A stretch of DNA of 64,000 nt from Eubacteriales bacterium SKADARSKE-1 (lineage in GTDB: Bacteria; Bacillota; Clostridia; Oscillospirales; Acutalibacteraceae): assembly GCA_030920305.1 (NCBI GenBank), contig JARLUB010000001.1, forward strand, positions 372,001-436,000. The letters run 5' to 3'. The stretch's first letter is position 1, and every line of letters begins with the position of its first letter. A program made the position numbers and the translations under genes. The notes below the pieces were generated by a model. It did no database searches and was not told the DNA's origin. It saw only the letters and a program-made list of their open reading frames with translations. Of the stretch, positions 18,516 through 37,109 are shown in pieces.

Positions 18516-18551
18516 TTTTTCTAGAAAGATAATATAATGAATCTAGAAAAA
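18516..18551 (+). promoter_or_regulatory. Inverted repeat around a -10 box upstream of the GIY-YIG gene
   Basis: TTTTTCTAGA (18516-18525) and its exact inverse TCTAGAAAAA (18542-18551) enclose 16 bases containing TATAAT (18533-18538); TTTTTT follows shortly. It could be an operator over a promoter or an AT-rich terminator of ssrA. No -35 is evident. Confidence 0.4.
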
Positions 18552-18605
18552 TTTTTTACGGCTTTTGAATAGAGCCTTATAACAAAAAATTTGGAGTGAT
18601 AGAAT

Positions 18606-19232
18606 TTGGTAGGTATTTATAAGATTACAAATAAGATTAATAACAAAATTTATGTTGGGAAAAGTACAGACATAAAAAACGTTTGGGAAAAACATAGAAA
18701 TTTAAATGAAGCAAAAAAGTTTGCATTAGAAAAAGATATGGCACTTTATGGTGCTGATAAATTTGAATTTTCTATTTTAGAAGAGTGCGATGAAGACAAG
18801 CTTTCTGACCGGGAAAGTTTTTATGTTGATTTATATGATGCTATAAAGGCTGGTTATAATTCAAAGAAAAATAAGGTATCAAGCTTTTCAAGCGAAAGAA
18901 TATCTGCCAAAGAACAAAAGTGTTGTGGAAATTCTAGTAATATAGGTATTGGGCTAAAAAAACATGTTGAAAGAATGAGAACGGACCCGGAATATAGAAA
19001 TAAGATGGTTCAAAAATATAAAAATAATAGGCCAAATGCAATTCCAGTTGATATGGTAGATAAAAGTACTTGCGAAATCGTAATGACTTTTCCAAAAATC
19101 ATGGATGGTGCTTTGTGGATAAGAGAAAATACAGATTATAAAAAAGCTGATTATGCTACCATAAATAAGATCTGTAAAGGTCAAGGCAAAACAGCATATG
19201 GTTATAGATGGAGATATACGAGAGACAGATAA
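18606..19232 (+). CDS. GIY-YIG homing-endonuclease-like protein, probably catalytically impaired
   Basis: 208 residues. The N-terminal GIY-YIG domain has GIYKITNKINNKIYVGKS (residues 3-20) and the Glu motif RESFYVDLY. The C-terminus looks like the NUMOD/IENR1 DNA-binding modules of free-standing homing endonucleases (RMRTDPEYRNKM; MDGALWIRENT...GYRWRY). The Arg expected in the D-I-K-x-R-W-x-x-H segment is Val here (DIKNVWEKH), so cleavage may be lost. TTG start with GGAG 9 bases upstream. It sits right after ssrA, a common insertion site for mobile DNA, although no repeats bound it. Confidence 0.8.
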   Translation: MVGIYKITNKINNKIYVGKSTDIKNVWEKHRNLNEAKKFALEKDMALYGADKFEFSILEECDEDKLSDRESFYVDLYDAIKAGYNSKKNKVSSFSSERISAKEQKCCGNSSNIGIGLKKHVERMRTDPEYRNKMVQKYKNNRPNAIPVDMVDKSTCEIVMTFPKIMDGALWIRENTDYKKADYATINKICKGQGKTAYGYRWRYTRDR

Positions 19233-19247: not shown

Positions 19248-19287
19248 AAAAATAAGTGTACTAGTTTTTGCTAGTACACTTATTTTT
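19248..19287. terminator. Bidirectional terminator between convergent genes
   Basis: A perfect stem of at least 14 bp (AATAAGTGTACTAG with its complement) and a 6-base loop are flanked by A-rich and T-rich runs on both sides. It serves the GIY-YIG gene (plus) and the AAA+ gene (minus). Confidence 0.9.
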
Positions 19288-19307: not shown

Positions 19308-20765
19308 TTAAGTATTAGAAGTTATTTTTGGAATGATCTTCAAAGTAAAAGTGTCGGTATCTTCATTATAGGAAACGAAAATTTTTGTGTTTTTACAGTT
19401 ATTATTAAATTCAGGAGAAATTACAGTGTTGGCAAGTTCTTTTATTAGACCATCCATTATATTTTTTATTGTTCGAGAGCCTTTATTTTCATTTGCTGTT
19501 CTTTTAGCAACATGTTGGAATGTATCGCCCATATAAAGTTCAATGCCAGCAAATTTTAACCAATAGTTTGTAAAATTATTGTGATATTCGGCTCTAGCTA
19601 TTTCCTCATAGTTTGTTTCAGTTAAATTTTCGAACTCAACTACTTTTATTCGGTTTAAGAATGATTTGTCATGTTTTATGGTTGTTCTCGAACCTGTGCC
19701 ATCATCAATTTTTTTATCAATTTCCTGATTTCCACCATTAACAGAACCAGAGCTTTCATTAGAAGTTATAATAAAAATAATGCTAGAACAATCTATAATT
19801 TGCCCCTTTACGCTTATAACACCTTGGTCAGTAATAGTTCTCATTATTTCATCTAGGGAAGGGCTCCACATTTTATCATACTCATTAATTATTACAATGC
19901 CATCTTTATTTCTTTCTAGGTATTTTACAAGACAAGAGCTATCCTTTATAGACATTCCATAATCGCTCCCATAACTTTGAAGACCAAAGAGCTGGTCAAC
20001 AATAGTTGATGTGCTAGCCACATCTATTTCAGAGGCTGAAATTATAAATGGGTTTGAATTAGATAAAGCTTTTGCAATATGCTCAGCAGCAAAAGATTTA
20101 CCAACACCAGATGCACCTGTAAAGTAAAGAACATCTCCATGACTATACTTTTCTTTATTAAATTTTGCCTGGTTTTTTCCATGTATAATACCATATATAA
20201 TTTTTTGTATTTTTTCTTTTGCAAGTTTTTGCCCTTTGAGAGCCTCTAACTCCTTATTTAATTTTTTAATAGTTTCTTGTGGGCTAACAGTTTTTTTGGG
20301 AATCAATTTTTTTGTTAAGTCTGCAATATCATAAATTTTACTTTTAAGCCAGTCATATGAACACAAAGTATAAAAGATTCCCCTTGAACGAGAAGAAAAA
20401 GAATCGAGCAGTATAAACCCTGTGGTAGCAATACTGAAGAATATACTTTTGCTAAACAAATCTTTAGATTTATCAATAATATGTGTTCCACTAAAGTCAC
20501 ACTCATTGAGTAGATTTCCAAAGTTGTAAAAAACTTTTAAAGGAATTTTTTTAAAAAGGTCAGCCAAAAAATAGGTACTTTTTTTAGTTTGAGGATCTTG
20601 AGAATCTGTTGAGTTTGAGTGATTTAGCACATATGCTTTAATATTGTCCGGAAGAGTTTCCAAATTATTAAAACAAATAGATTGAGGTTCTTGGGCAAAT
20701 GCAAAAATAGAATTAGAACTTAAAAAAACGGTAATTGCTAAAATGATTGATATAATTTTTTTCAT
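19308..20765 (-). CDS. Exported AAA+ ATPase, ClpB-D2/torsin-like (copy 1)
   Basis: 485 residues. Signal peptide MKKIISIILAITVFLSSNSI..FA-Q (about 1-25), a hydrophobic segment (about 107-121), then one AAA+ module: Walker A GASGVGKS (217-224), Walker B IVIINEYDK (290-298), sensor 1 TSN (334-336), Arg finger FLNRI (369-373), sensor 2 GSR (429-431). The order and the DKM/FLNRI motifs place it with ClpA/ClpB second domains and torsins, but it has no Clp N-domain or second ring. Walker B has Asn where Asp is usual. By its signal peptide the ATPase should lie outside the cytoplasm. Copy 2 at 33288-34721 is clearly homologous. Partner and function unknown. Confidence 0.85.
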   Translation of the reverse strand: MKKIISIILAITVFLSSNSIFAFAQEPQSICFNNLETLPDNIKAYVLNHSNSTDSQDPQTKKSTYFLADLFKKIPLKVFYNFGNLLNECDFSGTHIIDKSKDLFSKSIFFSIATTGFILLDSFSSRSRGIFYTLCSYDWLKSKIYDIADLTKKLIPKKTVSPQETIKKLNKELEALKGQKLAKEKIQKIIYGIIHGKNQAKFNKEKYSHGDVLYFTGASGVGKSFAAEHIAKALSNSNPFIISASEIDVASTSTIVDQLFGLQSYGSDYGMSIKDSSCLVKYLERNKDGIVIINEYDKMWSPSLDEIMRTITDQGVISVKGQIIDCSSIIFIITSNESSGSVNGGNQEIDKKIDDGTGSRTTIKHDKSFLNRIKVVEFENLTETNYEEIARAEYHNNFTNYWLKFAGIELYMGDTFQHVAKRTANENKGSRTIKNIMDGLIKELANTVISPEFNNNCKNTKIFVSYNEDTDTFTLKIIPKITSNT

Positions 20766-20852
20766 GTTTGTTATTTCCTCTTTTAAAAATATTTTTTAAA
20801 TTGCCTGGTTCTTTTTAATTGTATTTTAAGTAAATTAGAAAATTTTTCTCTT

Positions 20853-20880
20853 TTGGAATTATATGGTTTTTTTGTATAAT
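20853..20880 (+). promoter_or_regulatory. Promoter in the divergent region upstream of spoIIM
   Basis: TTGGAA (20853-20858), 16-base spacer, TATAAT (20875-20880), giving a leader of about 175 bases before spoIIM. A minus-strand TATAAT (20858-20863) overlaps it and may serve the AAA+ gene, so the two units may compete. The leader contains a long AT-rich inverted repeat at about 20944-20995. Confidence 0.45.
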
Positions 20881-21059
20881 TGAAGCAACATTGTAAAAAA
20901 ATGGAGGAATTTTTATATAATTTATCAAATATCAACTTAATTTGAAAATAAAAAGTAAGGTTTTAGCCTTTTAAAGGTTATTTTTTTATTTTCTACAAGT
21001 AATATTTCATAGCTTTTTTTCATACTTATCCTATATAAGTCCGAAATGGAGGAAGTAAT

Positions 21060-21701
21060 ATGGAACGGATAAGTTTTTTGAATAAAAATTTAAAAAAAGA
21101 TAAGCTTTTAAAGCTTCTTTCAGATAACAAAACATTTGTTATTTTGTCTGCAATATTGCTTTTTGGGGTATTTTTAGGGGCTATTTCCTCAGGGTTAGCT
21201 GATAAAAATACCATTGCCAGGATAAATGCATTATTTTTAAATAGCTTTAAAGTTCGTGAATCTGAATTAGCGTTTAATATTTTTGTTTCGTCGTTGTCTT
21301 CAGTATTCTTTTTTGTATTAATTGCTTTTTTTATGGGTTTATCTCTCTGGGGGTGCGTATTAGCTCCGGTTGTTCCACTTGTGAGGGGCTTTTGTATAGG
21401 GCTTTTTCAAAGTTATTTATATGGAACTTATGGTTTGAGGGGAATTTGTTTTCAGCTTTTAGTCTTACTTCCAGGTTTTTTCTTATCATCGATTGCTATT
21501 TTGTTAATGTCACGAGAGGCCATGAGATTATCCCATAATTTTTTAACATTTGTATTTTTTAAAAGTAGTAATACATACGATAAAAAGGAAGATATTCGCA
21601 TTTATTTATTAAGGACTGGCTGCGTTTTGATAATAGCAGTTTTATCAGCAATACTAGACTTGATTTTTAATTTTATATTTTTACGTTTTTTTTCTTTTTA
21701 G
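21060..21701 (+). CDS. spoIIM: Stage II sporulation protein M-like membrane protein
   Basis: 213 residues with about five hydrophobic helices and the SpoIIM/DUF95 layout. There is an N-terminal helix after a basic start, then an ectodomain segment, then FFMGLSLWGCVLAPVVPLVRGFCIGL and a long helix with LLVLLPGFFLSSIAILL. In Bacillus SpoIIM joins SpoIID/SpoIIP in septal peptidoglycan degradation during engulfment. GGAGG precedes the ATG. Sequence support is moderate because the family is diverse. Confidence 0.75.
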   Translation: MERISFLNKNLKKDKLLKLLSDNKTFVILSAILLFGVFLGAISSGLADKNTIARINALFLNSFKVRESELAFNIFVSSLSSVFFFVLIAFFMGLSLWGCVLAPVVPLVRGFCIGLFQSYLYGTYGLRGICFQLLVLLPGFFLSSIAILLMSREAMRLSHNFLTFVFFKSSNTYDKKEDIRIYLLRTGCVLIIAVLSAILDLIFNFIFLRFFSF

Positions 21702-21719
21702 AAGGTGACATTGTATGTA

Positions 21720-21746
21720 GGCGATGCATTTAGCATCGTCTTTTTT
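21720..21746 (+). terminator. Terminator of spoIIM
   Basis: An 8-bp stem (21720-21727 with 21733-21740, one G-U), a 5-base loop and six T, 19 bases after the stop codon. Confidence 0.88.
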
Positions 21747-21873
21747 ATTGAGGTGAATTTGGTCAAGTTGTTTATTGAGCTAATAAAAAAACAAATTTAC
21801 TGTAAATAAAATAGGCTTTTTAAAAAATATATTTATGTAAATAAAAAGTTACTAAATTTTTTTAGTTATCTAG

Positions 21874-21902
21874 TTGCAATCCTCTAAACATTTGTGTAAA
21901 AT
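21874..21902 (+). promoter_or_regulatory. Promoter of the PucR-type regulator gene
   Basis: TTGCAA (21874-21879), 17-base spacer, TAAAAT (21897-21902), about 65 bases before the start codon. Confidence 0.55.
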
Positions 21903-21974
21903 ATACTTAGGTCAATATTATTTGTTGTAATTGACTCAAAAATTAAATAATATTAATAGTAAGGGAGTAGTTTT

Positions 21975-23060
21975 ATGTCTAACAGATTGTTTCAAGGTAT
22001 TATCCATAAGATGCATGATGCCATAGGAAGAACTATTGGAGTTATTGATGAAGCATCGGTTGTTGTAGCGTGTAGTGATCTTGATAAAATAGGTGAGGTT
22101 AGAGAGAATATAACAGCGGATTTCTTTAAACCTTCATCAACATTTGTGATAAATGGCTATACATACAAATCTTTTGATTGCAAAGGTCATTCTGAATATG
22201 CTGTATTTGTAAAAGGCGATGATGAATCAGCTCAAAGATATGTTTCTATTTTAGCTATATCTCTTGGCAACATTAAGCAATATTATGATGAAAAATACGA
22301 CAGAGGCAACTTTATAAAAAATGTTATACTTGACAACATTCTTCCTGGAGACATATACATAAAAGCTCGTGAATTACACTTTAACGCTGACACTTCCCGT
22401 GTTTGTATGCTTGTAAAAATTCTTTCAAAGACAGAGCATGTTCCTTATGAGATAATTCAAAACCTATTTCCAGATAGAACAAAAGATTTTGTTGTTAGCA
22501 TTAATGAATCAGATATAGCATTAATTAAAGAAGTGAAAAAGGGAATTGACTCAAAAGATTTAGAAGAGCTTGCAAAATCCATAATTGACACTTTAACGAG
22601 CGAATATTATATTCATTGTTGCGTTGGTATAGGTACAACAGTTACAACAATTAAAGATTTAGCATTTTCATTTAAAGAAGCTCAAATAGCTATTGAAGTT
22701 GGTAAGGTGTTTGACACTGAAAGACAAATAATAAACTATGATAATCTTGGTATTGCAAGATTGGTATATCAATTGCCAACAACTCTTTGTGAAATGTTTT
22801 TACAAGAAATCTTTAAAAATGGGTCAATAGATTCCCTAGACCCTGAAACTTTATTTACAATTCAAAGATTTTTTGAAAATAATTTAAACGTTTCAGAGAC
22901 TTCACGTAAATTATTTGTACATAGAAATACGCTGGTCTATAGACTTGAAAAAATAAAGAGACTTACAGGGCTTGATATTCGTGAATTTGAAGATGCAATT
23001 GTATTTAAAGTTGCATTGATGGTTAAAAAATATTTATCATCAAACCCAGTAAAGTATTAA
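21975..23060 (+). CDS. PucR/CdaR-family transcriptional regulator
   Basis: 361 residues. The C-terminal helix-turn-helix is the PucR type: NLNVSETSRKLFVHRNTLVYRLEKIKRLTGLD, with the near-invariant HRNTL-YRL. The centre (about 180-260) resembles the GGDEF-like domain of CdaR proteins, with VGIGTTVTTIKDLAFSFKEAQIA. The N-terminal part may be a sensory domain. Located 71 bases upstream of ftsE; its target is not known. AAGGGAG precedes the ATG. Confidence 0.85.
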   Translation: MSNRLFQGIIHKMHDAIGRTIGVIDEASVVVACSDLDKIGEVRENITADFFKPSSTFVINGYTYKSFDCKGHSEYAVFVKGDDESAQRYVSILAISLGNIKQYYDEKYDRGNFIKNVILDNILPGDIYIKARELHFNADTSRVCMLVKILSKTEHVPYEIIQNLFPDRTKDFVVSINESDIALIKEVKKGIDSKDLEELAKSIIDTLTSEYYIHCCVGIGTTVTTIKDLAFSFKEAQIAIEVGKVFDTERQIINYDNLGIARLVYQLPTTLCEMFLQEIFKNGSIDSLDPETLFTIQRFFENNLNVSETSRKLFVHRNTLVYRLEKIKRLTGLDIREFEDAIVFKVALMVKKYLSSNPVKY

Positions 23061-23131
23061 TTTTAAATTAGAGCTAATGTTTTTGGATATTTATATTACA
23101 TCTGAAGACAAGTCAAAAAGGAGCGAAAAAG

Positions 23132-23812
23132 ATGATAGAGTTTAAAAATGTATCAAAAGTTTATCCCAATGGTACAAACGCTCTAAAAAATATTAGTCTT
23201 CATGTGGAAAAAGGCGAATTTGTATTTATTGTAGGTTCATCGGGTTCGGGAAAAAGTACATTTTTAAAACTTATAATGCATGAAGAGGAACCTTCGTGCG
23301 GGGAAATATTTATAGACGGAATAGATATAACCAAACTTTCAAAAAAAGAAGTTCCATATTTAAGGCGAAAAATGGGAATAGTCTTTCAAGATTTTAGATT
23401 AATTGATAAAATGAATGTTTTTGATAATGTAGCTTTTGCAATGAGAGTTACAGGTGCTAGCGAAAAAGATGTGAAAAAACGCGTTCCATACATATTGGGT
23501 TTAGTTGGTCTTCAAGATAAATCTGATAGAAGGCCGTCAGAGCTTTCAGGTGGAGAGCAGCAAAGAGTGGGATTAGCTCGTGCACTTGTAAATAATCCGT
23601 CTATAATTATTGCAGATGAGCCGACAGGAAATGTAGATCCAACAATGTCTTATGAAATTGTTGAGCTGCTAAGTGAGATAAACAAACGTGGGACAACCAT
23701 ATTAATGGTAACGCATGAACATAATTTAGTTGAACGTTTTAAAAAACGTGTTGTAGAAATAGATGAGGGCCACGTTACCTCTGATAATGAAGTATTGGAG
23801 GTGGGAAAATGA
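23132..23812 (+). CDS. ftsE: Cell-division ATP-binding protein FtsE
   Basis: 226 residues. ABC ATPase of the FtsEX complex, which gates peptidoglycan hydrolases at the division site. Walker A GSSGSGKST, Q-loop FQDFRL (FtsE-typical), signature LSGGEQQR, Walker B IIIADEPTGNVDP. AAGGAG precedes the ATG; the stop overlaps the ftsX start (ATGA). Confidence 0.97.
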   Translation: MIEFKNVSKVYPNGTNALKNISLHVEKGEFVFIVGSSGSGKSTFLKLIMHEEEPSCGEIFIDGIDITKLSKKEVPYLRRKMGIVFQDFRLIDKMNVFDNVAFAMRVTGASEKDVKKRVPYILGLVGLQDKSDRRPSELSGGEQQRVGLARALVNNPSIIIADEPTGNVDPTMSYEIVELLSEINKRGTTILMVTHEHNLVERFKKRVVEIDEGHVTSDNEVLEVGK

Positions 23813-24708
23813 AGGTTTGTTCTGTAAAATATTTGTTGGCAGAAGGTTTTAGAAACGTATGGAAGAATTGGATGATGTCAATAGCATCAATTGGTGTTTT
23901 AGTTTTATGCTTAGTTCTTACTGGTTCGTCTGCACTTTTGTCACTAAATATAACTAATGCTTTAGGTGAAATTGAATCAAAAAATAGCATTAAAGTTTGT
24001 TTGAAAGAAGATGTCGATACTGATCAAGCTATGGCTATTGGAGAAAAGCTAAAAAATATTGATAATATAGCTTCTTGTGAATTTTATTCACGAGAGGAAG
24101 CGGCCGAAAAGTATAGAGAACAAATGGGTGCAATTTTTGACAGTATGAAAGATAGAAATTTTCTTCCACACGCTTTTCATATTACTCTAAAAGATATTTC
24201 AAGGTATGGTGAAACAGTAGAGAAAATAAAGCAAGTAGAAGGAGTTGACACGGTTGTAAACCGTAGTGAACTTTTTGAAAAACTTACAAAATTTGACCAC
24301 TTTGTATCTTTAGCAGGAATAGCTGTTGTTTTAATTTTAACTTTAGTATCATTATTTATTATTTCAAATACTATAAGGCTTACCATGTATAATAGACGTT
24401 TTGAAATAAGCATTATGAAATCTGTTGGTGCAACAGATTGGTTTGTGCGATTACCTTTTATGGTGGAAGGTATGATTATAGGGATTATTTCCGCTATAAT
24501 TTCATCTATCATATTAAAGTTTTTTTATGATTTTGTGATAAGTTGCGTGGAAAAGAATATATCGTTTTTCCATACACCGTTTAGTGATGTATCTTTGCCG
24601 TTGTTCTTCTCATTCTTGCTTGCGGGTATAGGCTTTGGCTTAATTGGAGGCTTAATTTCAATTAGCAAATATTTAAAGAAAGAGGGAGGAGAGGTTCTTG
24701 GTTGGTAA
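23809..24708 (+). CDS. ftsX: Cell-division protein FtsX
   Basis: Permease-like partner of FtsE, 299 residues. N-terminal helix (about 22-48), an extracellular domain (about 50-165), then three more membrane helices with LTMYNRRFEISIMKSVGAT between the second and third. It overlaps ftsE by 4 bases and the next gene, an M23 hydrolase, by 11, a set-up expected if FtsEX controls that hydrolase. Confidence 0.96.
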   Translation: MKVCSVKYLLAEGFRNVWKNWMMSIASIGVLVLCLVLTGSSALLSLNITNALGEIESKNSIKVCLKEDVDTDQAMAIGEKLKNIDNIASCEFYSREEAAEKYREQMGAIFDSMKDRNFLPHAFHITLKDISRYGETVEKIKQVEGVDTVVNRSELFEKLTKFDHFVSLAGIAVVLILTLVSLFIISNTIRLTMYNRRFEISIMKSVGATDWFVRLPFMVEGMIIGIISAIISSIILKFFYDFVISCVEKNISFFHTPFSDVSLPLFFSFLLAGIGFGLIGGLISISKYLKKEGGEVLGW

Positions 24709-25918
24709 AAAATTAGCACAAAAAATTTTAAGTTTTTTACTAACAATTAACTTTTTAATTGTTCCCAATTATTTAAATTTCGCTTTAGCAATTGATATAA
24801 AAGAGAGTGAGAGTTTAAGACGAGAACTTCAAAGCGAAGGAGAAATACTAAGGAAAACTTTAAGTGAAACCAAAGGTAAAATAGAAAAGAAGAACGAGTA
24901 CATAAAGACAGTAAGTTCTCAAATTACTAATGTAAATAAGCAGATAAGAATTACAAATGATAGAATTGTTTCATTGTCTAATGAGATAGTAACAAAACAA
25001 AATAAAATAATATCAAGCCAAAAAGCAATTGACGACAATTTAGATATTTTAGTAAAGAGAATTAGAGCGGTTTATGTTGCTGGTGATGTTAATGCCTTGG
25101 ATATTGTCTTAGGTGCTAAAGACTATAATGACTTTATTGATAAGATGGAAATTGTTTCTAGAATGAGTATGCATGACGAAAAATTAGTAAAAGAACTGAA
25201 CAATCAAATAGAAACACTCAATGATGACAAAAAAAACATTGAACAAAATAAAGAAAAAGTTACAAGTGAGAAGCACTTACTATCTGAAAAACAAACAGAA
25301 CTTAACGGGTTGCAAGCAGAAAATGAGAAAGCCCTGGAAGAACTTAATGTAAAAAAAGAGGAAGCTCAGAGTTGTATTGATGAAAATGACGCCGAGTTTA
25401 AAAGGATACAAGCTCAAATAAGCAAGTATTATGCTGAGCAAGCTAAAAAAAAGGTATCAGGAAAACTTAGTAAATATAATGTTACTCCATCTGGTAAGAA
25501 TTTAGTTTGGCCGGTTCCTGGTTTTACGAGACTTTCTTCTCTTTTTAATGAAAAAAGGGGAGAAAAATACCATAAAGGGATAGATATAGCAGGTGCAGGA
25601 ATTCATGGTCAGGCAGCAGTTTCTGCTGATAATGGTGTGGTAATGTTAACTTATAATGGCTGTACTCATGATTATGGCAAATTGGGGAGCTGTGGCTGTG
25701 GTGGAGGCTATGGAAACTATGTTTTTATTGACCATGGAAATGGAAAGTGTACAGTTTATGCGCACCTTTCAGACGTATTGGTTCATCAAGGACAAGTTGT
25801 AAAAAGAGGAGAAACTATAGGCCTAGTGGGCTCAACGGGGCATTCTACAGGTTTTCACTTGCATTTTGAGTGCAGGTTATTTAATCAAAAATATGATCCG
25901 ATGTCTGAGTACCGATAA
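24698..25918 (+). CDS. FtsEX-linked M23 peptidoglycan hydrolase (EnvC/PcsB-like)
   Basis: 406 residues. Signal peptide (about 1-31, ending NFALA), long coiled coil (about 35-245) and a C-terminal LytM/M23 domain with YHKGID near 291, AHLSDV and HLHFEC near 387 supplying the zinc ligands. A Cys-rich insertion (CTHDYGKLGSCGCGGGYGN) precedes the conserved VFIDHGN. Coiled coil plus M23 directly after ftsX is the EnvC/PcsB arrangement, so activation by FtsX is inferred. TTG start at 24698 with GGGAGGAGAGG upstream. Confidence 0.93.
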   Translation: MVGKKLAQKILSFLLTINFLIVPNYLNFALAIDIKESESLRRELQSEGEILRKTLSETKGKIEKKNEYIKTVSSQITNVNKQIRITNDRIVSLSNEIVTKQNKIISSQKAIDDNLDILVKRIRAVYVAGDVNALDIVLGAKDYNDFIDKMEIVSRMSMHDEKLVKELNNQIETLNDDKKNIEQNKEKVTSEKHLLSEKQTELNGLQAENEKALEELNVKKEEAQSCIDENDAEFKRIQAQISKYYAEQAKKKVSGKLSKYNVTPSGKNLVWPVPGFTRLSSLFNEKRGEKYHKGIDIAGAGIHGQAAVSADNGVVMLTYNGCTHDYGKLGSCGCGGGYGNYVFIDHGNGKCTVYAHLSDVLVHQGQVVKRGETIGLVGSTGHSTGFHLHFECRLFNQKYDPMSEYR

Positions 25919-25959
25919 TATAGAGGGCAGTTAATCGAATTGATTGTTATAAGTTTAAC

Positions 25960-26002
25960 TTGCGCCGCGAAAGTCGAGCAAGGTTTTTCAGAAGTGGCAC
26001 AA
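25960..26002. repeat. GC-rich intergenic hairpin element, copy A
   Basis: 43-base GC-rich block. The ends pair imperfectly (TTGCGCCGC with GTGGCACAA) and it contains CGCGAAAGTCGAGC. Its 14-mer TGCGCCGCGAAAGT also occurs, inverted, in copy D (52278-52291). No U-tract follows, so it is not an obvious terminator. It lies between two plus-strand genes. Confidence 0.6.
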
Positions 26003-26116
26003 ATTAAATGGTTGTAAAAAATAATGTTTATGTTAAGGCTTTAGAATAGCTATAACATAGGCGTTATTTTTTTTTATATTTTAGCATATATAAATTGGAA
26101 AAGAGAGGTGAAAAAT

Positions 26117-26947
26117 TTGATTGTTGCTCTAACAATAAAAAAAATTAGAAATGAAAATTGGTTTAGTAAAATAATGGCCTTAGTATGTCCAAATAAAATA
26201 AATTTTGAAAAAAAAACATTGGGACCAGTTAAACTTTTACATATTACTATAAATCAAAGAAACAAAAGAATTCCATGGAAGAAACTTTCTAAAATATTAA
26301 AAAAGAAAACTCAGAATATTTTATGTCAAGAAAATACAAAGTTGCCAAAAAAATATGGGTTTTCAAGGTATAATTCAACTTGTTTAAAAAAGGTTTTGTG
26401 CAAAAATGCAGCCGTAAACGTTTTAAAACTTAGTAATATAAATCCTAATAAGTTAAAACTTAGCCTTTTTGATCCTAAAGCGGAACATTCTGAGATTTTA
26501 AAGGAATTAATTTTATTTTCAAATCAAGTAAACGTTGTAACTTATAATACATCAAAGTATTTAAAGGATCAGGAAAAAATGATGGCGGAATATGGTGCAT
26601 CCATTGTTGGTTCTGACAACTTAGATTTACTATTTAAAAGTAATGTTGTAATAGCCCCTAACAAAATAATGAAAACGCTACCAATTAGTCAAAGTTGTTT
26701 AGTTTTTACAAGTGAAAGAAGCTCAGCACCTTTAAAAGGAATAATATATCACGACTATAAAATATCTGTGCCACAGATTTTTAATTCCATAATGCCACCT
26801 GATTTAGATCCAGAATATTTTTTATCGGCAGTTTATGATAAATATAACATTTGTGAAATAAAACAGATAATTCCGAAGAATTGTTTGTGTGAAAATAAAG
26901 AATTATCAATAAAAGATATAGCAAGTAAAATTTTTTATGAGCAGTAA
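26117..26947 (+). CDS. Conserved-looking protein of unknown function
   Basis: 276 residues from a TTG at 26117, chosen because AGAGAGG lies 8 bases before it; the frame can be extended to a GTG at 26108. No signal peptide or membrane span. The N-terminal 110 residues are very basic. The C-terminal half alternates beta-type and helical stretches (VNVVTYNTSKYL; GASIVGSDNLDLLFKSNVVIA) like a Rossmann-type fold, though no nucleotide-binding Gly motif is visible. I do not recognise the family. It stands alone between the ftsEX unit and miaB. Confidence 0.75.
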   Translation: MIVALTIKKIRNENWFSKIMALVCPNKINFEKKTLGPVKLLHITINQRNKRIPWKKLSKILKKKTQNILCQENTKLPKKYGFSRYNSTCLKKVLCKNAAVNVLKLSNINPNKLKLSLFDPKAEHSEILKELILFSNQVNVVTYNTSKYLKDQEKMMAEYGASIVGSDNLDLLFKSNVVIAPNKIMKTLPISQSCLVFTSERSSAPLKGIIYHDYKISVPQIFNSIMPPDLDPEYFLSAVYDKYNICEIKQIIPKNCLCENKELSIKDIASKIFYEQ

Positions 26948-27079
26948 TGTTTGTAGATATAAAGTAAAATTCTTTGAAAGTGCCATGGATTTTTTATTAT
27001 ATAGCAATGGTGAATTATTGAAGAGACTTAAAAAAAATGTTAAACTAAAAGTATAATACATTTTGGAGGTACTTTTTAG

Positions 27080-28492
27080 TTGCAAAATATTATAGATACA
27101 AATAAATGTTTGAACGTAAAAAAAGGTGAAGAGCTAGAAATTGTAAAAAAATTGATCTTACAAAGGTTTAAAAATAAAGTACCAAAAGCTCTTGTTAGAA
27201 CTTATGGGTGTCAGCAAAATTTTTCTGATTCAGAAAAAATAAAAGGAGTTTTAGCAGAACTTGGCTTTTTTTTTACAGGAAATGAAGCAGATGCAGATTT
27301 AATTTTATTTAATACTTGTGCGATAAGAGAGCATGCCGAAGATAGAGTTTTTGGAAATGTTGGAGCTTTAAAAAATATTAAGATGAAAAATCCTTCTTTA
27401 ATCATTGCTCTTTGTGGGTGCATGATGGAGCAAGAGCATATTGTAAAAAAAATAAGGACAAGCTTTCCTTTTGTTGATTTAGTTTTTGGGACTCATTCTA
27501 TTTCAAAAATTCCAGAACTTATATATAAAATTCTTTTAAAAAAGCAAAGGGTATTTGAAAATGTGGTAGATGAGAAAGTTATTAGCGAGGATTTGCCAGT
27601 TCTTCGAGAAAATAAAATAAAAGCTTCAGTCCCAATTATGTATGGCTGCGATAATTTTTGTTCATATTGCGTTGTGCCATATGTTAGAGGCCGCGAAAAA
27701 AGCAGGGAACCTTCAAATATACTAAAAGAAGTTAGTGAAATAATAAATTCTGGTTATAAAGAAATAACTCTGTTGGGCCAAAATGTTAATTCATATGGGA
27801 AAAATTTAACCCAGAGTATTAATTTTTCAGAACTTTTAAAAAGAATAGATTCTATAGATGGTGAGTATTGGATTAGGTTTATGACTTCACATCCAAAAGA
27901 TGCAAGCTGTGATTTAATTGATACTATGGCAACAGGTAAACATATATGCAAACATTTACATTTACCGTTTCAATCAGGGAACAATAATATTTTAAAGAAA
28001 ATGAATCGGCATTATACCAGAGAAAAATACCTTGAAATTATTAATTACGCAAAAAAGAAAATACCGGATATATCAATAACAAGTGATGTAATAGTAGGAT
28101 TTCCGGGCGAAACTTATGAAGAGTTTTGCGATACTTTAAGTTTAATAAAAGAAGTTGGATTTTCTTCTTTGTTTACATTTATTTATTCTAAGCGAGAGGG
28201 AACGATTGCAGCTACTTTAGATGACCCGATACCTTATGAAGAAAAGTCTAAATGGTTTAGTGAACTTTTAAAAGTTCAGACGGAGATAGCAGACAATTTA
28301 TATAAAAATATGATAGGCAAAAAAGAAAGAGTTTTGGTTGAAGACAAAAGCTCTAAAGATGGTATATTTATAGCCAGAACTAGTGGAAATATAGCTGTAG
28401 AGATTGAGGACAAAAATAATTTAATTGGGCAATTTGTTGATGTTTTGATATTAGATGCAAAGAGAAGTTACTTAACAGGAAAAATAGTTTAA
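27080..28492 (+). CDS. miaB: tRNA-2-methylthio-N6-dimethylallyladenosine synthase MiaB
   Basis: Radical-SAM methylthiotransferase acting on A37 of tRNAs that read UNN codons. 470 residues: UPF0004 domain with three Cys (TYGCQQN, NTCAIRE, LCGCM), radical-SAM CDNFCSYC (CxxxCxxC), HLPFQSGNN, and a C-terminal TRAM domain. NTCAIREHAEDR marks MiaB rather than MtaB or RimO. TTG start with GGAGG 10 bases upstream. The order miaB-ylbF-mutS is as in many Firmicutes. Confidence 0.96.
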   Translation: MQNIIDTNKCLNVKKGEELEIVKKLILQRFKNKVPKALVRTYGCQQNFSDSEKIKGVLAELGFFFTGNEADADLILFNTCAIREHAEDRVFGNVGALKNIKMKNPSLIIALCGCMMEQEHIVKKIRTSFPFVDLVFGTHSISKIPELIYKILLKKQRVFENVVDEKVISEDLPVLRENKIKASVPIMYGCDNFCSYCVVPYVRGREKSREPSNILKEVSEIINSGYKEITLLGQNVNSYGKNLTQSINFSELLKRIDSIDGEYWIRFMTSHPKDASCDLIDTMATGKHICKHLHLPFQSGNNNILKKMNRHYTREKYLEIINYAKKKIPDISITSDVIVGFPGETYEEFCDTLSLIKEVGFSSLFTFIYSKREGTIAATLDDPIPYEEKSKWFSELLKVQTEIADNLYKNMIGKKERVLVEDKSSKDGIFIARTSGNIAVEIEDKNNLIGQFVDVLILDAKRSYLTGKIV

Positions 28493-28511
28493 AATTTAAG
28501 GAGAAATAAAA

Positions 28512-28919
28512 ATGGATGTTATAGACATAGCAAGACAATTAGGGAAAGCAATTCAAGATGATGAGAATTATTTGAATTTTAAAATAGCCAGTCAAAATAA
28601 TGACGAAGATGAGATACTTCAAAATTTAATAAAAGAATTTAATCTTAAAAAGATTTCTATAAATAATGAAATTTCAAAAGAAAATAAAGATGAGGAAAAA
28701 ATAAAAAATTTAAATGATGAATTGAATAAATGCTATGAAGAAATAATGGAAAATGAAAGTATGAAAAATTATAAGCTTTCAAAGATTGAATTTGATAATT
28801 TAATGAAAAGAGTTAGTGCAATAATTATGCAATCAGCAAACGGTGAAGACCCAGAAACCACTGATTTAGTTGAACCAAATTGCGGTGGCTCTTGCAGCAG
28901 TTGTACAGGTTGTCACTAG
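28512..28919 (+). CDS. YlbF/YmcA-family protein with C-terminal cysteine cluster
   Basis: 135 residues: mostly helical (two long charged helices, about 5-105) as in YlbF/YmcA (RicF/RicA), then a Cys tail CGGSCSSCTGCH. In Bacillus the Ric complex binds [4Fe-4S] clusters and affects RNase Y and phosphorelay function. Its place between miaB and mutS matches ymcA of B. subtilis. The four-Cys tail could bind a metal or an Fe-S cluster; that is inference. Confidence 0.8.
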   Translation: MDVIDIARQLGKAIQDDENYLNFKIASQNNDEDEILQNLIKEFNLKKISINNEISKENKDEEKIKNLNDELNKCYEEIMENESMKNYKLSKIEFDNLMKRVSAIIMQSANGEDPETTDLVEPNCGGSCSSCTGCH

Positions 28920-28937
28920 TTAAAAAATATAGGGTGT

Positions 28938-28985
28938 GGGGTGTCGCGAAAGTGCGAGCATAACGAGCGCGGAAGTGGCGACCCG
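28938..28985. repeat. GC-rich intergenic hairpin element, copy B
   Basis: 48-base GC-rich block. The ends pair with a two-base bulge (GGG-TG-TCGC with GCGACCC). It contains CGCGAAAGTGCGAGC and the related CGCGGAAGTGGCGA. It lies between ylbF-like and mutS. Family shared with 25960, 36213 and 52248. Confidence 0.55.
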
Positions 28986-29044
28986 TAATTATAAATTTAA
29001 ACTAATTATTAGCAACTGACTATTTTATACGGGAGTGTATTATT

Positions 29045-31654
29045 TTGGCAGAATTATCACCAATGATGAAACAATATTTTGAGATAAAAGAGAAAAATAA
29101 AGATTCTATTTTGTTTTTTAGACTTGGCGATTTTTATGAGATGTTTTATGATGACGCAGAACTTGCAGCTAAAGAATTAGAGCTTACTTTAACCGGCCGC
29201 GACTGTGGCCAAGAAAAAAGAGCACCGATGTGTGGTATTCCATATCATAGCTGCGAAAGCTACATTGCACGGCTTATTGAAAAAGGATATAAGGTTGCAA
29301 TTTGTGAGCAAATAGGGGATGTTTCCGCTAAGGGGCTTGTTAAACGCGATATAATAAGGGTTGTTACACCAGGTACAATTTTGGAAAGTGACTTGCTTGA
29401 TGAATCAAAAAACAATTTTATGTGTTCTTTATTTGCAGGTAAATTTGGAATTGGATTTTCTGTGTGTGATGTTTCAACGGGAGAACTTAGTGTAACTCAT
29501 ATTTTTGGACAAGATTCAGAACAAAAATTAAAAAATGAACTTACAAAATTTTCACCTAAAGAAATTTTGCTTAGTGGCGATATAAATAAGTTCCAAGAGA
29601 TTAAAGAGTTTATAAAAGAAAAATTTACCGCTTCAATAGAAGCTTTAAAAGGTAGCTTTAAAAATTTTAGTGAGTGTGAACTTTTAATATTAAAACAATT
29701 TAAAAAAGAAAGTTTAACTGAACTTAATATAGAAAATGAAGATTTAATATTTAGTCTTGCTGAATTGATTTTATATCTTCAAAACACACAAAAAATAGGC
29801 CTTGAAAGAATAAGTTCAATTGACCTATATAGTGAAAATGAATTTATGCGGCTGGACTTAAACACTTGCCGAAACCTGGAATTAGTTGAGACGATGAAGG
29901 GGAAAGAAAAAACAGGCTCACTTCTTTGGGTTTTAGATAAAACAAAAACAGCTATGGGCAAAAGGCTTATTAGAACATATATTGAAAGACCTCTTTTAAA
30001 TTGTATGAAAATAATAAAACGGCAAAATGCCATAGAAGAGCTTTTTTCTAATATTAGATTACTTGATGATATAGGCGAACAGCTAGATGGGATTTATGAT
30101 TTAGAAAGGCTTTTAACAAAAGTAGTTTACGGTTCTGCAAATGCTAGAGACTTAAGAGCTATTTGTTATGCTGTTTCAAGATTGCCAACCTTAAAAGAAA
30201 AGTTAAATGGGGTCAATTCCAATCTTTTAAATGAAATTAAAAATAATATTGATTCGTTAATAGATATAAAGGAACTTATTGATTCTTCGATAGTGGAAGC
30301 TGATATACCGGTATCGTTAAAAGATGGCGGAATAATAAAGCAGGGCTATGACTTAGATCTTGACGAACTTAGAGACGATTTATTTAGCGGTACTGACGTT
30401 ATAGCAAAAATTGAAGCTAGAGAAAAAGAAAAAACCGGGATTACAAAACTTAAAATAGGGTATAATCGAGTTTTTGGGTATTATATAGAAGTTTCAAATT
30501 CATATAAAAATAAAGTGCCAGAAAGTTATATAAGAAAACAGACACTTACTAACTGTGAAAGATATATAACGCAAGAACTTAAAGAATTGGAAGGGAAAAT
30601 ATTAGGAGCTAAAGACAGAGCAATTAATCTTGAGTATGAACTTTTTGTTAAAGTTCGAGAAAAGGTTGCAAGCGCTCTTGGAAGAATTCAAAAAACAGCC
30701 CAAAATGTAGCACAGCTTGACGTTTTATATTCTTTATCGGTGGTGGCGTATAAGAATAATTACACTAAACCGGAAATTAACAATAGTGGAAAAATTATAG
30801 TTAAAGAGGGACGGCATCCGGTTGTTGAACTACTTTCCAAGAATTCTTTATTTGTACCAAATGATGTGCTTTTAGACAAAGACGAAAATAGAGTTGCAAT
30901 TATAACAGGACCTAATATGGCCGGTAAATCTACATATATGAGGCAAATTGCCTTAATTACGCTTATGGCACAGATAGGAAGTTTTGTTCCGGCTGTTTCT
31001 GCTCAAATTGGAATTGTTGATAGTATATTTACAAGAGTTGGAGCAAGTGATGATTTAGCTAGTGGGCAATCAACTTTTATGGTTGAGATGAGTGAAGTTG
31101 CCAATATAATTAAAAATGCTACTTTAAATAGTCTTCTTATATTAGATGAAATAGGACGAGGCACTTCTACATTTGATGGTATGAGCATAGCTAGGGCTGT
31201 TCTTGAATATGTAGCGGATAAGAAAAAGTTGGGCGCAAAAACTTTATTTGCTACACACTACCATGAATTAACAATACTTGAAGATTTAATAGATGGGGTT
31301 AAAAATTATAATATAGCCGCTAAAAAACGAAACGATGATATAATATTTCTTCGAAGAATTGTGCGGGGTGGGGCTGATGACAGCTACGGAGTAGAGGTTG
31401 CAAAATTAGCAGGTATTCCTGAATGGATTATAAGTAGAGCAAAGAAAATATTAAATGAGCTTGAAACACAAAAGCGCCCTGAAAGTCCCAATAGAACCGT
31501 AGTGAACAATGATGAGATAATGCAAATTTCTCTTGAAAACACAAATGATAAAAAGGTTATTGATCGCCTTAAAAAGCTAGATGTAACAACCCTTACACCT
31601 ATTGAATCAATGAATATCTTATTTGAAATTTCAAGTTTTCTAAAAAGTAATTAA
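29045..31654 (+). CDS. mutS: DNA mismatch repair protein MutS
   Basis: 869 residues. Mismatch-binding N-terminus with FFRLGDFYEMFYDDA (the Phe-x-Glu wedge), connector, lever/clamp domains, then the ATPase with GPNMAGKST near residue 622, LLILDEIGRGTSTFDG and ATHYHEL. TTG start supported by GGGAGTG. In many Firmicutes mutL follows; here tyrS does, so mutL must be elsewhere or absent. Confidence 0.97.
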   Translation: MAELSPMMKQYFEIKEKNKDSILFFRLGDFYEMFYDDAELAAKELELTLTGRDCGQEKRAPMCGIPYHSCESYIARLIEKGYKVAICEQIGDVSAKGLVKRDIIRVVTPGTILESDLLDESKNNFMCSLFAGKFGIGFSVCDVSTGELSVTHIFGQDSEQKLKNELTKFSPKEILLSGDINKFQEIKEFIKEKFTASIEALKGSFKNFSECELLILKQFKKESLTELNIENEDLIFSLAELILYLQNTQKIGLERISSIDLYSENEFMRLDLNTCRNLELVETMKGKEKTGSLLWVLDKTKTAMGKRLIRTYIERPLLNCMKIIKRQNAIEELFSNIRLLDDIGEQLDGIYDLERLLTKVVYGSANARDLRAICYAVSRLPTLKEKLNGVNSNLLNEIKNNIDSLIDIKELIDSSIVEADIPVSLKDGGIIKQGYDLDLDELRDDLFSGTDVIAKIEAREKEKTGITKLKIGYNRVFGYYIEVSNSYKNKVPESYIRKQTLTNCERYITQELKELEGKILGAKDRAINLEYELFVKVREKVASALGRIQKTAQNVAQLDVLYSLSVVAYKNNYTKPEINNSGKIIVKEGRHPVVELLSKNSLFVPNDVLLDKDENRVAIITGPNMAGKSTYMRQIALITLMAQIGSFVPAVSAQIGIVDSIFTRVGASDDLASGQSTFMVEMSEVANIIKNATLNSLLILDEIGRGTSTFDGMSIARAVLEYVADKKKLGAKTLFATHYHELTILEDLIDGVKNYNIAAKKRNDDIIFLRRIVRGGADDSYGVEVAKLAGIPEWIISRAKKILNELETQKRPESPNRTVVNNDEIMQISLENTNDKKVIDRLKKLDVTTLTPIESMNILFEISSFLKSN

Positions 31655-31719
31655 GCTTTTTGATTTGGAACTAAAAAAAGATGTTATTTCACAAAATAAA
31701 AAAGCAAGGAGAATTAGCT

Positions 31720-32955
31720 ATGAATGTATTTGATGAACTGAAGGAGCGCGGACTTATAGCTCAAACCACAAACGAAGAGAAAATTAAAGATATGTTAGAA
31801 AATCAAAAAATAAGTTTTTATATAGGTTTTGATCCGACAGCAGACAGCCTTCATGTAGGACATTTTGTGCAAATGATGGTAATGGCGCATATGCAAAAAG
31901 CAGGGCACACGCCAATTGCTTTATTTGGCGGAGGAACCGGGATGATCGGGGATCCTTCAGGCAAAACAGATATGCGAAAAATGTTAACTCATGAAGATAT
32001 AGACCATAATATTTCATGTTTTAAACGACAAATGTCAAGATTTATTGACTTTTCTAATAACAAGGCTATTATGGTAAATAACGCAGATTGGCTTTTAAAT
32101 CTTAATTATATTGAATTTTTGCGTGATATTGGTGTGCATTTCTCAGTTAACCGTATGTTAGCTGCAGAATGTTATAAACAACGCTTAGAAAATGGACTTT
32201 CTTTTTTTGAATTAAATTACATGATAATGCAAAGCTATGACTTTTTAGTTTTAAATCAAAAATATAACTGCCAATTAGAGCTTGGTGGAGATGACCAGTG
32301 GAGCAATATTATTGGCGGTGTTGCGCTAGTTAGAAAAAAACTGCAAAAAGAAGTTTTTGGTATGACTTTTAACCTTTTAACAACTAGTGAAGGCAAAAAA
32401 ATGGGTAAAACTGAAAATGGTGCAGTTTGGCTTGATCCAGAAAAGACAAGTCCGTATGATTTTTATCAATACTGGAGAAATGTTGCCGACAGTGATGTTA
32501 TTAAGTGCCTTAAAATGTTAACATTTGTACCACTATTTAAAATAAATGAATTAGCAAAATTAACTGGCAGTGAACTTAACGGCGCAAAAGAGATATTAGC
32601 TTTTGAAATTACTAAGCTGGTTCACGGACAAGAGGAAGCTGAAAAAGCTCAAAATGCGGCTCGTGCAATTTTTTGCTCGGGCGAAAACACAGATGATATG
32701 CCAACAACTAAAATAAAACTAAGTGACTTTAACGATAAAAAAATACCTGTTGTTGAGCTGTTGATCATCTCTAAACTTGTTGCTTCTAAAGGTGAAGCTA
32801 GAAGGTTAATTGAACAGGGCGGGGTATCAGTACTTTTAAAAGATGAGACAAAAAAAATCTCATCAATAAGCGATGAGATTTTAAAAGATGATTTTACTGA
32901 TAATTTTATAATTATAAAAAAAGGGAAAAAAGTTTTTCATAAAATAGAACTTTAA
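31720..32955 (+). CDS. tyrS: Tyrosyl-tRNA synthetase
   Basis: Class I synthetase, 411 residues. HIGH-type motif SLHVGHF, KMSKS-type motif KKMGKTENG, tyrosine-binding YDFLVL and GGDDQWSN, and a C-terminal S4 domain ([28 protein letters not shown] region). The frame extends upstream to 31681, but AAGGAG lies before the ATG at 31720, giving [12 protein letters not shown], the standard start. There is no room for a T-box leader after mutS. Confidence 0.96.
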
Positions 32956-32983
32956 AAAGCTCTATTCAACAAGCTTTAAAATA

Positions 32984-33038
32984 AAACAAAGCATCATGGC
33001 ATTTTTAAAAAGTCTTGGTGCTTTGTTTGGGCTTTTTT
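32984..33038 (+). terminator. Terminator after tyrS
   Basis: A stem of about 13 bp (AAACAAAGCATCA with TGGTGCTTTGTTT, one G-U) and then GGGC plus six T. It occupies the first part of the 332-base gap before the AAA+ gene; the rest holds that gene's promoter. Confidence 0.7.
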
Positions 33039-33169
33039 GATTTATCTTATCATAAAAAATACTACCAAAATAGTTTAAATTTACAGTTATTTTTATTTAA
33101 TAAAACAAAAAAACTATTTTATTCATAAATTTATTACAAAACTGTCCTTAACTTTAAAAGAACTACAAA

Positions 33170-33199
33170 TTGATATTGATGGTTAATATATGGTATAAT
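33170..33199 (+). promoter_or_regulatory. Promoter of the second exported AAA+ gene
   Basis: TTGATA (33170-33175), 18-base spacer, TATAAT (33194-33199), about 85 bases before the start codon. Confidence 0.65.
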
Positions 33200-33287
33200 T
33201 ATATATAAGATATATGTGTCAGATATGCAAGTTTATTATATAACTAATTATACTTATAATTCATTACTAAAAAGGAAGGGAATTTTT

Positions 33288-34721
33288 ATGAAAAAAATTA
33301 TATCATTTATATTAGCAACCTCTATGATAATATCTTGTAGCATTATAGTACCAAATCTTTCCTGTAGGGCAGCAGGTTCAACTAGTGTCTCAAATATTGC
33401 CAATTGCGTTGGAACTTGGTGTAATAAAACATACGAGCAGATGAATGGAGGAGAACGTTTACAATATCATGCAGCCCTAGCCAGTTCGGGTGCATCAGCA
33501 CCTCAGCCTAATGGAATGCTGGAATATATGAAAATGAATTTTCTTTTTCAAATTTTTACTACGGTTGTTCCAATTGGACTTAAAGCTATATATATGTCAT
33601 ATAGCCACTGGAGAGAAAGTCGAAAAAATTGTGGAAAAATATTGGATATTAAGGATCCAATAGCCACATTGCAGAACTTAGATATTGGTTTGTTTTCTTT
33701 AAAAGGGCAAGAAAAGGCAAAAAAACAAATAAGGAGTATGATTTTAAATATCATTACTAAAAAGAATCATAAGTTAAGTTCAGATAAAAATGGAGCTACA
33801 GTTATATATATGGTGGGGCCATCAGGCGTAGGTAAATCATATTCATCTGAAATACTAACAAAAATTTTGACTGGTTCTAATTCAAAACCATATATAATAG
33901 AAGCTTCTGATATAGATAAGCAATCAAAAGCCAGCCCAGTTGAACAGTTGTTTGGCATGCGTACGCTGCGGGTTGGACCATGGGAAACATATGAAAAGTC
34001 TCCACTTATTAATCAGATAAAATCAACTCCTAAAATGGTAGTTTTAATAAATGAGTATGATAAAATGCATAGTCCTGAAATGGATGAAAAACTTAGAACT
34101 ATTATGGATCAAGGCTACATAAAAGTAAATGGTGAAACAATCGATTGTTCTGGTGTAACTTTTATAATTACCTCAAACGAAAGTTCAGGCTCTGTTAATA
34201 ATGGTAATCAGGATACTGAAAATGTAGATGATGGAACGGGTTCTAGAACATTTATCAAACATGATAAGGCATTTTTAAATAGGATTCATTTGATAGAGTT
34301 TGAAAACTTAAGTACACAAGAGTACCAAGAAATAGCAGAAACCCCGTGCAAAGAGCTTGCGATGCGCTTTTTACAAGAATATAAGATATTAATAGACCTA
34401 AGAAAGGTCCCTCAAGTAATAGCTGAAAGAACTTCTAAGCTAAATAAGGGCGCAAGACCAATATATAACTTTATTGAAGAATTAAACACAAAGATTTTAG
34501 ATGAAGTTATCTTAAAGGGAAGACAAGATAAAAATTATACCGGAAAAATTTTCGGAGTGTCTTATGATGAAACTGAAAATGAATTTAAGATAACAGAACT
34601 AGCTTTACCAAAACAGTTAAACGAGCAAGTTGAAAAATCATCACAAGAATCTACAACTGTTGAGTCTATAAATTTAGATAAACAACCAAAAGAACCAATA
34701 CTCTCAGTCAGTCAAAATTAA
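33288..34721 (+). CDS. Exported AAA+ ATPase, ClpB-D2/torsin-like (copy 2)
   Basis: 477 residues from the ATG at 33288 (GGAAGGG upstream; the frame runs on to 33216 without a ribosome site). N-terminal export signal MKKIISFILATSMIISC; IISC fits a lipobox with Cys17, so it may be a lipoprotein. A hydrophobic stretch follows at about 84-103. AAA+ core: Walker A GPSGVGKS (177-184), Walker B VVLINEYDK (251-259), sensor 1 TSN (295-297), FLNRI (329-333), sensor 2 GARP (388-391). The ATPase shares long identical runs with copy 1, including the SSGSVN...DDGTGSRT segment between sensor 1 and the Arg finger. The N-terminal 130 residues are not alike. Ser/Glu-rich tail. Confidence 0.87.
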   Translation: MKKIISFILATSMIISCSIIVPNLSCRAAGSTSVSNIANCVGTWCNKTYEQMNGGERLQYHAALASSGASAPQPNGMLEYMKMNFLFQIFTTVVPIGLKAIYMSYSHWRESRKNCGKILDIKDPIATLQNLDIGLFSLKGQEKAKKQIRSMILNIITKKNHKLSSDKNGATVIYMVGPSGVGKSYSSEILTKILTGSNSKPYIIEASDIDKQSKASPVEQLFGMRTLRVGPWETYEKSPLINQIKSTPKMVVLINEYDKMHSPEMDEKLRTIMDQGYIKVNGETIDCSGVTFIITSNESSGSVNNGNQDTENVDDGTGSRTFIKHDKAFLNRIHLIEFENLSTQEYQEIAETPCKELAMRFLQEYKILIDLRKVPQVIAERTSKLNKGARPIYNFIEELNTKILDEVILKGRQDKNYTGKIFGVSYDETENEFKITELALPKQLNEQVEKSSQESTTVESINLDKQPKEPILSVSQN

Positions 34722-34741: not shown

Positions 34742-34773
34742 AAAAGCCGTTAACTAAAAAGTTAACGGCTTTT
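34742..34773. terminator. Bidirectional terminator between AAA+ gene and yccF
   Basis: A perfect 13-bp stem AAAAGCCGTTAAC with its complement and a 6-base loop, with A/T runs on both sides, between convergent genes. Confidence 0.9.
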
Positions 34774-37092: not shown

Positions 37093-37109
37093 AAATTCAC
37101 CTTCTTTTT

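Follow-up and report, generated by a model that had tools for sequence, protein, structure and literature searches.

A candidate exported family of Clp-type AAA+ ATPases in small-genome, presumably host-dwelling Acutalibacteraceae

Can an ATPase of the Clp type have its place of work outside the bacterium that makes it and, if so, where would its fuel come from? As AAA+ unfoldases depend on ATP, one expects them where ATP is plentiful. Eukaryotes are known to have Clp-type AAA+ proteins that are exported or act in another compartment (torsins, HSP101 and Skd3); in the literature searched (open-licence full texts, supplements apart) no case of an exported bacterial one was found. The question is raised by two genes, those of proteins A (P0001) and B (P0002), within 64,000 nucleotides of the genome of Eubacteriales bacterium SKADARSKE-1 (assembly GCA_030920305.1, contig JARLUB010000001.1, positions 372,001 to 436,000 of the forward strand), a stretch referred to below as the window. 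An earlier note on it had described both products as exported ATPases of ClpB-D2/torsin type with variable front ends. The explanation proposed here, to which we give roughly an even chance, is that they belong to a clade-specific family of exported, single-module AAA+ proteins of the Clp/HSP100 type, whose ATPase would stand outside the membrane and use host ATP in remodelling proteins at the interface between parasite and host.

Both genes are real and complete (Table 1). The open reading frame of protein A is exactly that of the earlier note, and that of protein B had also been rightly placed: its longest frame begins at GTG 33216, and the start is taken as ATG 33288 because a strong ribosome-binding site, AAGGAAGG, precedes it. 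The motifs that had been named, Walker A, Walker B, sensor 1, FLNRI and sensor 2, are present in both proteins, and in protein A they read GASGVGKS, VIINEYDK, TSNES, FLNR (the arginine finger) and KGSR. Pfam AAA_2 scores of 41.2 bits for A and 54.7 for B, where the curated cut-off is 27, together with catalytic residues in the positions of those of Clp proteins, bear out the assignment to the Clp-D2 type. As had been seen, the two share an ATPase core with differing fronts: identity is 45% over residues 123–436, with identical runs that include IITSNESSGSVN and DDGTGSRT, and the N-terminal parts past the signal give no convincing alignment.

Is the N-terminus exported? On simple scales both window proteins have Sec-like features, namely a positive start, a hydrophobic core and small residues at the cut, and on a 19-residue biological-scale sum their N-terminal segments score 0.5 and 0.6–1.1, similar to membrane segments encoded in the window. 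A crude signal-peptide rule is passed by 25 of 39 family N-termini (about 27 by eye, with the loci that we label L093, L167, L170 and L175 added and L114 and L117 removed), by 2 of 22 Clp proteins and by 26 of 60 open reading frames of the window. Six relatives (L095, L099, L101, L104, L105 and L114) start with a leader of about 80–110 residues that ends in GG or GA and that we take to resemble Nif11 leaders. None of the Pfam and NCBIfam leader models scored above cut-off, that for class IIb bacteriocins reaching 15.8 in L104 where 21.5 is needed. A published leader pattern, L(-12)xxxE(-8)L(-7) (PMC6363468), is by eye matched in kind at each of its three positions in L095, L104 and L114, at two of the three in L099 and L105, and at none in L101. 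The leader-bearing AAA+ proteins are of 660–890 residues and have a second, signal-like hydrophobic stretch after the leader. A profile of the leader matches 15 of the 19 genomes found to have the AAA+ family (some weakly, and the window's own genome not among them) and none of four relatives with larger genomes, and in those genomes the leader occurs on many other proteins (L136–L159), mostly without a Pfam match and often with a signal-like stretch after it. One such protein, L143, has an EndoU-like match just below cut-off (22.8 against 25.3 bits), and two leader-bearing frames of 1236 and 1312 residues, L140 and L142, contain a more distant AAA domain and are perhaps a second exported AAA group.

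ABC transporters with a C39 peptidase cleave double-glycine leaders and export what follows. In a search of 34 genomes such a transporter was found in all 19 with the AAA+ family and in all 23 translocase-encoding genomes tested (the translocase is treated below), and among 10 relatives outside both sets there was one match above cut-off and one sub-threshold; it is apparently a clade-wide secretion machine. Since two unrelated export signals are found on one ATPase core, it would seem to be export of the protein, rather than any one N-terminal domain, that is conserved, and we read the Sec-like and double-glycine routes as supplying one ATPase family. Judged from the sequences themselves more than from the count under the crude rule, there is good support for an exported N-terminus, and the suggestion of a family with variable front ends is borne out.

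What of the fuel? The earlier note had supposed that external ATP would suit a cell living inside a host, and a gene for an ATP/ADP translocase is indeed present in the genome (E = 2.5e-132). Among 399 genomes from this taxonomic family 24 have a match to the translocase model, in a distribution that the AAA+ family tracks: 18 of the 19 genomes with that family and 6 of the 380 others (Fisher p = 3.6e-25, a value that overstates the independent evidence as the genomes are related). The AAA+ genome without a match is G179, and one of the matches, in G090, is weak (9.2e-15). Translocase without the AAA+ family, at these thresholds, is found in G109, G120, G122, G289, G346 and, as a fragment, G326, and one small genome, G004 (1.4 megabases, Mb), has neither gene. 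Three more of 1.1–1.5 Mb (G022, G023 and G027) have only ordinary Clp-length frames and are not named among the translocase matches, the list being one that does not name every genome lacking a match. Small size by itself does not seem to predict the AAA+ family.

The 'small genome clade' of Acutalibacteraceae has been described as made up of obligately intracellular energy parasites, one member of which lacks the translocase, and of 42 eukaryotic-like proteins at least 20 were predicted to have signal peptides (PMC10579323). AAA, ClpB and torsin are not mentioned in the main text of that paper, and the three clade-unique groups of 'hypothetical protein' that it reports might include the present family. 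With its 1.38 Mb and its translocase the SKADARSKE-1 genome has features of the clade, and from these two we infer that it belongs there; the organism, a gut bacterium, is probably intracellular and an importer of host ATP.

How widespread is the family? The genome itself has six intact copies: A and B, one on contig C12 and three on contig C17, of which one is of 451 residues and two, near-identical, are of 531. There are in addition a split copy and a fragment. The 531-residue twins (L024:10540-13097 and L025:5930-8463) are oppositely oriented, and next to each lies one of two related genes for small secreted proteins; their region also holds, by reading, an integrase-like gene. The split copy (L024:1354-3341, C17) is a second tandem copy with its frame broken in two, the pieces of which have been kept separate; the fragment (L023:7475-7690, C17) is a 71-residue frame with a short piece of the AAA+ core, and its overlap with an integrase-like frame on the opposite strand suggests recombination between copies. 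Beyond this genome, a profile from four members (E <= 1e-29, with the best three candidates scored per genome) found the family in 19 of the 399 genomes, spread over eight genera and every one of 0.9–1.4 Mb. Copy numbers from it are lower bounds, as scoring nearly all candidates gives up to several more, mixed with ordinary Clp proteins. At this strictness G179 barely passes (7.7e-30, where ordinary Clp frames reach 2e-28), and it is clear with a wider profile (2.4e-46). A divergent, signal-bearing member, L179, which has the longest branch in the tree described below, comes from G289, a genome scored negative at the strict threshold; further divergent copies are possible in G120, G122 and G289. 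In an even sample of the class, 391 genomes, the window's own genome alone gave a clear match (E <= 1e-28), the single borderline match being an ordinary Clp-length frame of 838 residues. Of nine named loci returned by a genome collection, eight belong to metagenome bins with Clostridia or Oscillospiraceae in the title (roe deer rumen is named in one of these), and the ninth is a remote deltaproteobacterial match. A mobile or phage origin was considered and set aside: three unannotated phage records match at 25–27% identity only, none of 258 pattern matches in viral contigs is a relative, and among the 20 listed of 26 plasmid records those annotated are TssH, ClpB, Clp or 'AAA family ATPase'.

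Are these, after all, ordinary Clp proteins with an unusual front? The earlier note had left it to a tree whether both fall inside a ClpB/ClpC clade, and they do not. In a maximum-likelihood tree 38 family domains are separated from 22 Clp/TssH-like domains by a 100/100 branch of length 2.9, and the family is thus distinct from the Clp proteins compared, a placement within ClpB, ClpC or TssH being rejected. Three of the 22 are annotated (TssH and two ClpB), the others being unnamed Clp-length frames, and torsins and ClpX lie outside the tree's coverage; its bootstrap had yet to converge, and with some very long branches in the family the order inside it is uncertain. The 38 rows leave aside a near-identical twin (L061), the partial or overlapping L063, L137, L138, L175 and L177, the split copy (both parts), L129, L140 and L142 as weak, and other AAA and P-loop proteins; the comparison set is 22 of the Clp/TssH-like rows listed. 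Within the family protein B groups with copies from other genera (support 100/99), protein A with L165 and P0004 (100/97) and a further member, P0003, with L094 (100/95). As these groupings cross genera, the divergence of the paralogues seems to predate that of the genera, and a recent duplication giving rise to A and B was rejected on the same placements. The age and divergence of the members suggest that their clients differ.

The catalytic residues have been retained to a large extent. Of 38 domains, all 38 have the lysine of Walker A, 37 the sensor-1 asparagine, 37 the arginine finger, 35 the glutamate of Walker B and 35 the sensor-2 arginine, columns that are filled in all 22 Clp rows. 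A standard Clp feature that is not found is pore loop 1: GYVGY occurs in none of the 38 family rows, which have in its place a loop variable in length and sequence, while of ten Clp rows printed nine have GYVGY and the tenth GYVGF. From these residues one would expect ATP to be bound and probably hydrolysed by the family, which has a complete active site of its own and is without the standard loop for gripping substrate.

On which side of the membrane, then, is the module? A cleaved signal followed by one true span leaves an AAA+ module in the cytoplasm. The second hydrophobic segment of the window pair scores 5.4 and 5.3 on the scale used above, which is marginal, and it is called weak because it lies inside the range of the best stretches of presumably soluble proteins of the window: 2.2, 3.2 and 4.0 for what we take to be ClpP, DXS and MutS, and 5.5 for RnfC, true spans being mostly below 3. 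Of the export signal and hydrophobic segment that had been claimed for both proteins, the former is well founded and the latter is too weak in these two to be called a span. A segment just before the module was sought in 37 members with a usable N-terminus (8 of 45 rows having been dropped, i.e., ClpX, frames split or cut at the 5′ end, a fragment, a duplicate and L117). Nine have a membrane-like one, 16 a marginal one and 12 none, though 4 of the 12 do have one right at the N-terminus only. An extra hydrophobic segment is carried by several members whose N-termini are long, and if all of these span, the module is flipped. With segments that vary and extras in the long members, the counts do not imply that the module is always cytoplasmic. 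Such drift is not what one expects of a topology-fixing span and is more like the membrane-associating stretch of TorsinA, though this is not decisive. On balance the module lies, somewhat more probably than otherwise, outside the cytoplasmic membrane. Under the proposed explanation Sec would export the N-terminus of the window proteins, and relatives would use Sec-like or double-glycine-leader routes or both; the module would most likely be external, lightly held to the cytoplasmic or a host membrane by its weakly hydrophobic helix, and would burn host ATP to remodel proteins at the boundary of parasite and host. ATPase activity, ring formation, side of the membrane and target are all things that we infer.

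Several observations weigh against an external, host-fuelled motor. The best stretches in 22 soluble Clp/TssH controls score 5.7 to 10.8, so that the segments of the window pair are slightly more hydrophobic than any of them; the nine members with a clear membrane-like segment would have the module inside after signal cleavage; in L107, L108, L112 and L120, which have only the N-terminal segment, three of the four lack positive charge ahead of it, and this fits an N-out/C-in arrangement; and the segment of protein B has one positive charge before it and three after, again favouring the module inside. The first Walker B residue, an Asp throughout the 22 Clp controls, remains so in just 16 of the 38 family domains, the rest having Asn (14, both window proteins included), Glu (6), His (1) or Lys (1), and hydrolysis may be slow as a result. 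Finally, the window has an Rnf cluster at 36295-41398, unlike the three published endosymbionts, which are without the Rnf complex (PMC10579323), and the organism may be less reduced than they are. Of these observations, the nine membrane-like segments and the charges around that of protein B also speak for a layout like that of FtsH, with the signal removed, a short domain outside, one span and a cytoplasmic AAA+ module. The outer part would then sense or bind, and the motor would act on bacterial proteins, e.g., in the feeding or quality control of secreted effectors. Such a motor would have ATP for certain, and in the AlphaFold2 (AF2) model of protein B residues 74–115 form one continuous helix, the first part of it at low confidence. 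Yet in the window pair the segment is marginal, as it is, or is not found, in 28 of the 37; protein A has the charge pattern reversed (three before, two after), so that the module inside is not favoured there; two segments before the module would flip it; export of the whole protein through a double-glycine transporter misfits a cytoplasmic motor; and Pfam finds no FtsH peptidase domain in A or B. An anchored cytoplasmic motor is a serious possibility, with the odds against it.

The other candidates are weaker. If the proteins were effectors, injected or displayed on the surface, the weak helix might insert in a host vacuole membrane with the AAA+ module facing the ATP-rich host cytosol. The family is diverged and multi-copy, some small proteins of this genome that are unrelated to it likewise combine a signal and a short hydrophobic stretch (window 4695-5336 and 5611-6099, and genes on C17), and host membrane was observed around two of the three related endosymbionts that have been published (PMC10579323). 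We think the idea improbable. Descent from, or transfer of, true torsins comes to mind through the combination of signal, hydrophobic stretch, single Clp-like module and absence of the Clp pore loop, as in TorsinA (PMC4999309 and PMC5425593). The match to the Pfam Torsin model, PF06309, is weak, at best 20.8 bits against a cut-off of 27 among 12 proteins scanned, and the arginine finger and Clp-like sensor-2 arginine, kept in nearly all members, differ from torsins, which lack the finger and have Gly-Cys-Lys (PMC4999309). Membership of the torsins, and with it that half of the earlier label 'ClpB-D2/torsin', was accordingly rejected, and bacterial torsins are very improbable. Least probable of all is that these are functionless Clp copies in decay, for which the split copy and the fragment on C17 might speak: catalytic residues are kept in most of the 38 domains despite very long branches and a spread over several genera, and copies that group with A, B and P0003 occur in genera other than this one.

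The features of the two genes are collected in Table 1. The promoter match of protein B is weak evidence, as promoter-like matches over the whole window number 76 against a mean of 81.6 in shuffles, i.e., without excess.

Table 1. Features of the genes for proteins A and B, in window coordinates
Feature	Position	Strand	Remarks
Protein A (P0001, 485 residues)	19308..20765	-	Sec-like signal ~1-25; marginal hydrophobic segment 107-125; AAA+ module ~165-470
Protein B (P0002, 477 residues)	33288..34721	+	Signal ~1-28; predicted helix 74-115 containing marginal hydrophobic stretch ~85-103; AAA+ ~120-440
Promoter-like site, TTGATA-18-TATAAT, TG before -10 (extended -10)	33170..33199	+	Upstream of protein B; consensus match only
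Ribosome-binding site AAGGAAGG	33272..33279	+	Precedes ATG at 33288; strong
Hairpin with T run	34742..34773		Just 3′ of protein B; listed on minus, stem and A/T ends symmetrical
Terminator-like hairpin	19248..19287	-	Downstream of protein A

No partner gene recurs in most of the 38 stretches around AAA+ genes. Genes shared by 3 to 7 of them include an ABC ATPase and an integrase-like gene, names that, like the others in this paragraph up to tyrS, we have presumed from sequence. A sugar-transferase-like gene adjoins the AAA+ gene in L089, L090 and L091, which come from a single genus, and a relative is found elsewhere, in the L112 stretch; the L096, L097 and L104 stretches share a gene that looks lysozyme-like; and the AAA+ gene has tyrS as its neighbour in the window, L100 and L102, the latter two being closely related. 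The two small proteins of the window cited above, both encoded on the minus strand, have a Sec-like signal, a second hydrophobic stretch and no Pfam match, i.e., the layout of the AAA+ proteins without the ATPase. Adjoining protein A, at 18097-19232, is a gene for a GIY-YIG nuclease directly 3′ of the transfer-messenger RNA gene, and the region is possibly an insertion hot spot.

What would it mean? If true, an exported bacterial AAA+ family would change the expectation that such motors work in ATP-rich compartments, and co-occurrence with the translocase predicts external ATP as the fuel. Intracellular bacteria would gain a tool for generating force at the host interface, a role best known from malaria parasites, and there would be an independent case with which to approach the open torsin question of what an exported Clp relative does without its pore loop. 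A more far-reaching version is tentative, and we doubt it more than we favour it: bacteria that depend on host ATP would have evolved a dedicated family of exported AAA+ motors as a counterpart of torsins and HSP101, fuelled outside the bacterium by the very host ATP that the translocase takes up and unfolding or threading proteins at the vacuole or in the host cell, with two export routes and with old paralogues directed to different targets.

How does the family compare with systems already known? With the D2 module of Clp/HSP100 proteins (ClpA, ClpC and ClpB) it shares the positions of Walker A, the Walker B glutamate, sensor 1, the finger and the sensor-2 arginine; A and B differ in having a single module, with no D1 or Clp N domain found by Pfam, and an export signal, and in belonging to a separate clade. 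Torsins (TorsinA/B) are alike in being exported, in the hydrophobic stretch, weak here, and in one Clp-like module without the Clp pore loop, and unlike in that the present family is bacterial and multi-copy, has its own arginine finger and sensor-2 arginine, and scores below the Torsin cut-off; no torsin is among the 50 structural matches listed for protein B, an absence that excludes nothing. HSP101 of Plasmodium (PTEX) is a full-length Clp protein with two modules against one here, and no partner pore was found, though no search was aimed at one. Ankyrin repeats are a feature of Skd3/CLPB, which works in the intermembrane space of mitochondria, and Pfam finds none in A or B. FtsH has two N-terminal hydrophobic segments and then an AAA+ module, an order that A and B share, and theirs is of Clp type with no C-terminal zinc peptidase found. 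Closest on the side of export are Nif11-type double-glycine leaders and their C39 exporters, given the GG or GA leader ends of the six relatives and an exporter in every AAA+ genome; the known cargo of those systems is small peptides, whereas here it would be proteins of several hundred residues with a second Sec-like segment of their own.

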